A stretch of 64,000 nt of DNA from Candidatus Saccharimonadota bacterium (GTDB lineage: Bacteria; Patescibacteriota; Saccharimonadia; Saccharimonadales; Saccharimonadaceae): positions 1-64,000 of the forward strand of contig DAICYC010000002.1 in the NCBI GenBank assembly GCA_027311865.1. The letters are read 5' to 3'. The position numbers and the translations under genes were made by a program. Of this stretch, positions 9,596 through 63,908 are shown in pieces (the stretch's first letter is position 1; the number at the start of each line of letters is the position of its first letter). The notes below the pieces were generated by a model. It was not told the origin of the DNA. It ran no database searches and saw only the letters and a program-made list of their open reading frames with translations.

Positions 9596-10598
9596 ACCAG
9601 CTGACGAAAATATCGACAAAACTAGCGACGAAATCGAAGAAGTCGTTGCTGTTACTAATCCCTTAGTCGCCGATGTCGAAGAGCCCGCTATCGAAGACCT
9701 CGAAGAAGAAGAGGTCGACACTGACGAAGATTTGCTCAGCCAAGAGCAATATTTTGATGATGCTAGTGACGACAGTGTCCGTTTGTACCTGCGCGAAATC
9801 GGCAAGATTCCACTGCTCAGTGCTGAAGAAGAGCTCGCCCTAGCGCAACGAGTCGTGGCTGGCGAAAAGAAGGCCAAGGATAAGATGGCCGAAGCCAACA
9901 TGCGACTGGTAGTTTCGATCGCCAAGCGATACAGCGGCCGCGGTCTGGACTTCTTGGACTTGATTCAAGAGGGCAATACTGGACTATTACGCGCCGTCGA
10001 GAAGTTTGATCCCGACAAGGGCTTCAAATTTTCAACTTACGCTACTTGGTGGATTCGACAGGCGATTACGCGAGCCATTGCTGACCAAGCCCGAACGATT
10101 CGCATTCCAGTTCACATGGTTGAAACTATCAACAAATTACTTCGTACCCAACGTCGGATGACCCAGGAATTGAACCGCGAGCCGAGTATCGAGGAGCTGG
10201 CTAAAGAGCTGGAAATGGAACCAGAAAAAGTCGAGTATGTCATGAAAATCAAGCAAGACATTACATCACTCGACGCCGGTGTCGGTCGAGATGGTGATGA
10301 CGAGGATTCGGTTCTACGTGATTTCATCGAGGATGAAGATTCAGCTACACCGGAAGAGTCAGCGGCCTCACAGCTACTCAAAGAGCAGGTTCAGTCGATT
10401 TTATCGACGTTGTCAGATCGTGAACAAAAGATAATCAAAATGCGCTTCGGTCTCGAAAATGGTAAGAGCCACACTCTCGAGGAAGTTGGTCAAGAATTTG
10501 CCGTTACGAGAGAGCGTATCCGCCAGATTGAAGCCAAGGCGCTAGCCAAGCTACGTAAACATAAAGACTCAAAGAAGCTTCACGAATATATTCAATAG
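9579..10598 (+). CDS. rpoD: Primary RNA polymerase sigma factor
   Basis: [58 protein letters not shown]-terminal [17 protein letters not shown]. Confidence 0.96.
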
Positions 10599-35000: not shown

Positions 35001-35036
35001 GCGAGCCCTTGGACTCCATCCCAGTTTCCCGAGATG

Positions 35037-35085
35037 ACGCGTAAACGAACCTGAACGACGGGGTCAGTATTGTTTACGCGTTTTT
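35037..35085 (+). terminator. Terminator after tlyA with extended loop
   Basis: ACGCGTAAAC ... GTTTACGCGT followed by TTTT (10-bp perfect stem, 25-nt loop). Confidence 0.7.
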
Positions 35086-35213
35086 CAACCATGCTTTTCG
35101 CCGATTGGCTAATCAGGTTAGGTTGGTTGCCGAATTGTTATAACACTACGAAAAGTAGAGTTGACGCTAGTTTAACACGACAGTGAAAATTCTTACAACA
35201 CAGGGTGAAGTTA

Positions 35214-62700: not shown

Positions 62701-62720
62701 GGTTAATCGTACTGACTAAC

Positions 62721-62750
62721 AAAAACTCCCTGACTAATCAGGGAGTTTTT
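62721..62750. terminator. Symmetric bidirectional terminator between MBL gene and rpmB
   Basis: AAAAACTCCCTGA-ctaa-TCAGGGAGTTTTT. Confidence 0.92.
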
Positions 62751-62767
62751 GTTTGAGGTTGATTGGC

Positions 62768-63070: not shown

Positions 63071-63700
63071 ATGGATATTATTACGACAATTCTTATTGTG
63101 TTGGGTACTGTCTTGATTTCGATGACGCTTCACGAGGCGATGCACGCTTTCGTGGGTTATTGGCTGGGTGATGATACGGCTAAGCTACAGGGTCGCTTGA
63201 CGTTGAATCCAATCAAGCACATCGACCCTTTTTTGACAGTTTTGTTACCGCTGACTTTGGCGGCAATCGGTGCTCCAATTTTTGGTGGCGCCAAGCCAGT
63301 TCCCTTTAATCCCGATCGGGTCAGGGGAGGCGACTGGGGTGCTGCGCTGGTGGCGCTCGGCGGACCACTGACCAATCTGGTCCTGGCGTTCGTTGGCTAT
63401 GGTGTCTGGGTGTTGCTCGGTTCACCTCTCGGGTCGTTGTTGTCGATAGTTTTGATGACCTTCGTCTTGGTCAATCTCGGATTTTTCGTTTTTAACATGC
63501 TGCCGTTGCCGCCACTGGATGGTTCGCGAGTGATTTATGCCTTGGCACCGGAATTCGTGCGCACTTTCATGCGATTTATGGAGAGCTATGGATTGATTTT
63601 TATCTTCGCAATCGTGCTCCTGGCTTCCCAGCCGTTAGGCTTGTTTATATCAGGTGCCATCGACTATATTCTCGCTGGCTTTCAATTTATTTTCAGCTAA
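63071..63700 (+). CDS. Site-2 protease family (M50) membrane metalloprotease
   Basis: TLHEAMHAFVGYWLGDDTAKLQGRLTLNPIKHIDP, FNMLPLPPLDGSRV; start ATG 63071. Confidence 0.92.
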   Translation: MDIITTILIVLGTVLISMTLHEAMHAFVGYWLGDDTAKLQGRLTLNPIKHIDPFLTVLLPLTLAAIGAPIFGGAKPVPFNPDRVRGGDWGAALVALGGPLTNLVLAFVGYGVWVLLGSPLGSLLSIVLMTFVLVNLGFFVFNMLPLPPLDGSRVIYALAPEFVRTFMRFMESYGLIFIFAIVLLASQPLGLFISGAIDYILAGFQFIFS

Positions 63701-63720
63701 CTAGTGCTATAATAAGACGT

Positions 63721-63868
63721 GTCCAACCGGGCCAAAGGTACATATGATTTTCCGATATCATATGATAGGGAAGCCATACGCTTAACTCCGTGGAGTTGAG
63801 CTGAGGTCAACCACCGTATTCGTACGTGGGAAACTATCATGCGTACTGGCGGGCCGGCTGGACTTTTT
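63721..63868 (+). ncRNA. Putative structured ncRNA of unrecognised class (~148 nt) ending in an intrinsic terminator
   Basis: TATAAT 63708-63713; terminal helix GTCCAaCCGGgCC (63721-63733)/GGgCCGGcTGGAC (63851-63863) followed by TTTTT; internal hairpins P2-P5 and possible pseudoknot. Confidence 0.7.
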
Positions 63869-63908
63869 GTTTGCCCAGAAGTCGATCAGCTCATGCTAAA
63901 ATAAGCTT

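Follow-up and report, generated by a model that had tools for sequence, protein, structure and literature searches.

The RNA gene at the far end of the window (the whole 64,000-nucleotide stretch of DNA analysed here) encodes, with high confidence, a strongly diverged homologue of 6S RNA. It is very likely the 6S RNA (SsrS) of this Saccharibacterium in the full sense, an RNA that would block RNA polymerase and be released by synthesis of a product RNA (pRNA). In other bacteria, 6S RNA is a small RNA that blocks and then releases RNA polymerase, and its textbook length is ~200 nt. The original prediction described a structured RNA of unrecognised class and offered three identities: a 6S-like RNA, a riboswitch or attenuator of the downstream prepilin gene, or a new class.

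The analysis supports a real, compact and independent RNA with its own promoter and terminator (Table 1). All motifs quoted in the original prediction were found in place, including CATATGAT/ATCATATG at 63741-63748/63757-63764, and the complementarity claimed for the two ends of the transcript stands. The structure is stable beyond chance, with a fold energy of -59.4 kcal/mol against -45.05 for shuffled sequences (sd 3.89; z -3.69), a value equalled by 0 of 200 shuffles. Of 74 homologous loci, 66 carry a TANANT-like box in the 60 nt upstream of the core, against 16% of random positions, and 63 carry a T run in the 60 nt downstream, against a background of 35%. The conserved -10-like box and T run support the promoter and terminator that had been read from the window.

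Table 1. Coordinates of the RNA, its structural elements and its conserved neighbour in the window.
Feature	Position	Strand	Evidence
M50 peptidase gene, conserved upstream neighbour	63071..63700	+	PF02163; context, outside the RNA
-10 box TATAAT, promoter of the 6S RNA	63708..63713	+	Sequence; TANANT-like box in homologous loci
6S RNA gene (very probable), ~148 nt (ends inferred)	63720..63868	+	R3 match; class-wide distribution
Closing stem, 5' strand GTCCAACCGGGCC	63721..63733	+	11/13 pairs with 63851-63863; present in the minimum-energy fold
Inner closing stem, GGTAC with GTACT 63843-63847	63737..63741	+	A3 helix 1: compensatory changes at 5/5 pairs, 92.7% paired
P2 (downstream helix), 5' strand ATGATTTTCC, opposite GGAAA 63829-63833 and ATCAT 63836-63840; contributes to the predicted pRNA template	63744..63753	+	A3 helix 2
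Central bubble, 5' strand GATATCATATGATA; predicted pRNA start opposite U63756	63754..63767	+	CCGATAT as in E. coli 6S; pRNA hallmarks
Predicted central bubble collapse helix, 5' half, pairs with CTATCAT 63834-63840 (first read as a pseudoknot)	63762..63768	+	Cognate-strand test; template-blocking fold
Apical stem: GG/CC 63769-63770/63811-63812, GCC/GGT 63773-63775/63805-63807, TTAACTC/GAGTTGA 63782-63788/63793-63799, loop CGTG 63789-63792	63769..63812	+	A3 helices 3-5
Central bubble, 3' strand with hairpin CCAC-C-GTA TTCG TACGTGG (CCACCGTA...TACGTGG)	63811..63829	+	A3 helix 6, 92.7% paired
Predicted collapse helix, 3' half, and P2 3' strand: switching strand	63834..63840	+	Cognate-strand test; folding probabilities
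Closing stem, 3' strand GGGCCGGCTGGAC, also the intrinsic terminator stem	63851..63863	+	Sequence; T run after it
T run TTTTTGTTT, intrinsic terminator	63864..63872	+	Sequence; T run in homologous loci

Rfam returned no match at the window RNA, even at E<=10. The sequence has diverged far enough to escape Rfam's 6S model in this genome, and the failure to recognise its class by eye is thus understandable. Homologues supplied the identity. A scan of 20 short homologue sequences against the full set of 4227 Rfam families brought up the 6S family RF00013 in 11, each time at the RNA, on its strand and below the cut-off; the best, L100, reached 45.8 bits (cut-off 46.4; E 3.4e-7) over its full length. 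No second Rfam family recurred at the RNA among these 20 sequences. L093 held an additional weak 6S match outside the RNA. The Rfam scan that had been proposed as a check thus gave nothing at the window itself and led, through the homologues, to a known family.

Detection is reciprocal. Across 389 genomes of the phylum, RF00013 scored above its cut-off in 5 and was seen at E<=0.001 in 29. R3, a covariance model built only from Saccharimonadia sequences, gave coinciding matches at 28 of the 29 RF00013 loci, among them all five above the cut-off; a few of the 29 are Saccharimonadia, and one of these (L132) comes from a genome used for R3. The five above-cut-off loci all lie outside Saccharimonadia, and R3 recovered them at the same coordinates with E values of 3.2e-8 to 2.3e-4. 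R3 gave no match to Escherichia coli 6S. We file the window RNA as 6S even though it misses the Rfam cut-off, which is a detection threshold rather than a biological criterion, because the two models recover each other's members and because of the synteny described below. Of the three identities first offered, the 6S-like RNA was the right one.

Homologues extend throughout the class. BLASTN against 100 relatives returned clear homologues for the majority of genomes in the genus and for part of the family, and the homologue alignment contains the near-invariant blocks AUGAUUUUCC, AUAUCAU, GGG, CCGUGG, CCACCUUGC and GCGGGGAAUAUCA. Covariance model R1, whose structure is close to the one first proposed (a local 5' hairpin plus ATGATAG/CTATCAT), recovered the RNA, once per genome, from 227 of the 298 genomes of the class. 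R3 detected it once per genome in 278 of 298 Saccharimonadia genomes (~93%), or 273 of the 289 of good quality, and scored 75.8 bits in the window (63736-63848, E 1.4e-16). At E<=0.01, it marked 145 of the 389 phylum genomes, weaker matches outside the class being counted as scored. The R1 structure was set aside for the 6S ground state, represented on R1's alignment by model R2. This gain was modest: R2 outscored R1 in 14 of 21 distant homologues and the reverse held in 7, with means of ~49.3 and 46.2 bits.

The ground-state fold is conserved. A MAFFT alignment of distant homologues (A2) was poor at its 3' end, and A3 was used instead. Among the 63 distinct sequences of A3, 93.0% of base-pair cells were paired and 24 of 30 pairs showed compensatory changes, figures that lean towards the tested structure because A3 was fitted to it. 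The covariation score was 0.633, against 0.200 in shuffled and at most 0.130 in slid controls, the latter being at most 59.2% paired. Compensatory changes fell on 7 of 9 pairs of P2 (89.6% paired) and on 9 of 12 pairs of the apical stem (93-100% paired). The unfitted alignment A1 likewise shows covariation in the apical and inner closing stems. A3 thus contains the rod characteristic of 6S RNA, with closing stem, central bubble and apical stem, and relatives display both the conservation and the covariation that the original prediction had named as a check. Its helix P3 (63774-63781/63841-63849) is not a conserved pairing; homologues instead pair 63773-63775/63805-63807 and 63737-63741/63843-63847. 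A pseudoknot of UUUCC with GGGA was also considered and rejected, the same letters lengthening P2 instead.

Two helices compete for one strand. In the free RNA in silico, P2 has pair probabilities of 0.82-0.996 in its outer part (ATGAT/ATCAT) and 0.37-0.47 in TTTCC/GGAAA, against at most 0.001 for the alternative helix ATGATAG/CTATCAT. The complementarity of these two heptamers is as first reported, but the pseudoknot drawn from it does not hold: ATGATAG/CTATCAT and ATGAT (63744-63748)/ATCAT (63836-63840) vie for the same 3' strand, and so represent alternative conformations. The supposed pseudoknot is better read as a predicted helix mutually exclusive with P2, matching the "central bubble collapse helix" of Bacillus subtilis 6S-1. 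In a duplex test with strands swapped between sequences, a kind of test that sequence relatedness inflates, cognate strands paired more strongly than swapped ones in P2 (-6.71 vs -5.34 kcal/mol), in the collapse helix (-3.68 vs -2.55 kcal/mol) and in the 5' bubble hairpin, a second competitor of P2 (-5.16 vs -4.22 kcal/mol), and 0 of 500 shuffles reached the cognate value in each case.

The predicted order of these helices depends on the template. Blocking 14 template nucleotides in silico reduced P2 to 0 and raised the collapse helix to a mean probability of 0.89, whereas blocking merely 6-10 gave other folds. The collapse helix is therefore predicted in silico to prevail only with a 14-nt product RNA bound to its template. 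The reported release length of E. coli and B. subtilis 6S is 13-14 nt (PMC8876501). Strong collapse helices occur chiefly in the window's genus and family; in several other families the helix is weak or absent. A longer 3' bubble hairpin is possible in L062 (CACCUG/CAGGUG), L066, L070 and other families of the order, as in E. coli. Given the longer hairpin and the weak collapse helix, the mode of release may differ among families.

The 5' bubble strand carries the marks of a pRNA template. CCGATAT at 63752-63758 is identical to nt 40-46 of E. coli 6S (CCGAUAU). We take the E. coli pRNA to start opposite U44, and the pRNA predicted from U63756 would read 5'-AUCGGAAAAUCAUA. Judged by its letters, the predicted opening AUCGGAAAAU has GG at positions 4/5, with A63757 just upstream of the start. 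In verified pRNAs, GG occupies positions 4/5 or 5/6 and an A sits upstream of the start (PMC8414754), template hallmarks that the window sequence shares.

These elements suggest how the RNA would act. It would be transcribed from its own promoter and end at the terminator made by its own closing stem. The rod with its central bubble would imitate an open promoter, and the bubble would occupy the active site of sigma-70 RNA polymerase, blocking transcription; a sigma-70 gene is present in the genome (PF04539, 83.3 bits, window 10122-10361). When NTPs return, the polymerase would copy the 5' bubble strand from U63756 into pRNA, which would strip strand 63744-63753 from P2. The freed 63834-63840 would then pair with 63762-63768, collapsing the bubble and releasing the polymerase. 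For Saccharibacteria, we infer polymerase binding, pRNA start and synthesis, and release from this picture; that pRNA is made and triggers release is an energetic prediction.

Less probably, the RNA may be a minimal 6S RNA that works as a switch for growth, its sequence encoding a two-way exchange of strands between P2 and the collapse helix, possibly in connection with transitions between free and host-attached states, or it may have moved to a modified target such as core polymerase. We consider it quite unlikely that this 6S descendant works differently altogether, for instance by targeting sigma-free core RNA polymerase in the manner of Ms1, or by acting without a pRNA. Ms1 demonstrates that 6S-shaped RNAs can bind the core enzyme (PMC9130861), and the window RNA is very diverged and short, but its pRNA start region still matches E. 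coli in sequence and carries both hallmarks (GG and A), both competing pairings (P2 and collapse) are stronger between cognate strands, and no other Rfam family matches.

Gene order also bears on the identity as 6S RNA. Almost every Saccharimonadia locus examined has an M50 gene directly upstream of the RNA, and the RNA lies downstream on the same strand at 75 of 80 M50 loci from named public genomes. The cultured Saccharibacterium TM7i is among the carriers of the RNA (L139). Six loci from other classes have an upstream same-strand M50 gene, namely four of the five above the RF00013 cut-off and two weaker ones; no M50 gene was found at five other loci of the same neighbourhood survey. This M50-6S linkage, class-wide and present in other classes of the phylum, is unusually deep for a 6S gene. 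The idea of a structured housekeeping RNA of a new class, with no relation to 6S, could appeal to the window sequence itself, which lacks any Rfam match at E<=10, yet it is highly improbable in the face of reciprocal detection with above-cut-off RF00013 loci, the conserved M50 synteny and the matching fold: homologues reach or nearly reach the Rfam 6S model, and the reciprocal search closes the gap.

Downstream genes vary among relatives, with tRNA-Pro(GGG) in many, others elsewhere, and prepilin in the window. A cis-acting riboswitch or attenuator of the prepilin gene would fit a terminator that ends ~40 nt before the prepilin start, but has next to no probability, since the downstream gene is not conserved, unlike the RNA and the upstream M50 gene, and the RNA's own -10 box abuts the structure. 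At the loci L062-L067, L069, L003, L018, L024, L026 and L028, many relatives have the tRNA-Pro(GGG) gene close to the 6S RNA, usually immediately downstream, and several have an RNase P RNA gene within ~2 kb of it. RNase P RNA (RF00010, class A) was rejected as an identity for the RNA itself, since four relatives have, close to the 6S RNA, a full-length RNase P RNA gene distinct from it.

Bacterial SRP RNA was likewise rejected: RF00169 was found in 0 of 41 relatives and not in the window's own genome at E<=10 (92% complete), and RF01854 in 0 of 31. A search for SRP54 in that genome gave only a short match below the cut-off; all 14 controls matched. Parcubacteria are reported to lack ffh and 4.5S RNA (PMC4508563), and a similar absence of SRP may hold here, in a genome that is 92% complete. 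The window contains a second structured RNA, a LOOT RNA (RF03000) at 35003-35124 on the minus strand (64.2 bits vs a cut-off of 46.4). Between a metallo-beta-lactamase-fold gene and rpmB (L28), a long inverted repeat with A and T runs (62716-62755) looks like a bidirectional terminator and attracts spurious Rfam matches.

6S RNA is a known kind, and the window RNA belongs to that known family. What appears to be new is its presence throughout Saccharimonadia, its class-wide conserved neighbour and the comparative signature of strand exchange. We found no earlier report of a Saccharibacterial 6S RNA in the searchable literature, where an earlier mention is possible; "6S RNA" and "Patescibacteria" co-occur in a single paper there, in which "6S RNA" denotes SRP RNA. 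To our knowledge, few global regulators are known in the tiny genomes of episymbiotic Saccharibacteria. That a 6S RNA occurs in ~93% of sampled Saccharimonadia, a group in which no SRP RNA was found, points to a polymerase brake under strong selection. Most of the phylum escapes Rfam's 6S model (5 of 389 genomes exceed its cut-off vs 145 of 389 with an R3 match at E<=0.01), and 6S absences inferred from Rfam annotation of Patescibacteria are thus doubtful. The competing pairings add a comparative case for the collapse-helix release model from B. subtilis.

Compared with known systems, the window RNA shares with 6S/SsrS (RF00013) a closing stem, P2, a central bubble with a 3'-strand hairpin, an apical stem, one copy per genome and, in most homologues, a conserved GGGAG...CACCCACCU core. 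It differs in its length of ~148 nt, its short apical arm, its position beyond the Rfam model and its M50 neighbour. Actinobacteria are the known hosts of cultured Saccharibacteria. Ms1 of Actinobacteria is also 6S-shaped and binds RNA polymerase (PMC9130861), but Ms1 binds the core enzyme, and we found no sequence relation between the two RNAs. E. coli 6S (ssrS, NC_000913.3) has the same CCGAUAU at the pRNA start, and close relatives of the window RNA carry CACCTTG (CACCUUG) in the 3' bubble, identical to E. coli nt 130-136; the extended 3' bubble hairpin possible in other families of the order is a further likeness, whereas E. coli 6S is 183 nt long and lacks an R3 match. Relative to B. subtilis 6S-1 (PMC8876501), the predicted collapse helix of the window RNA stands out for 7 pairs without a mismatch and a strength similar to that of P2.
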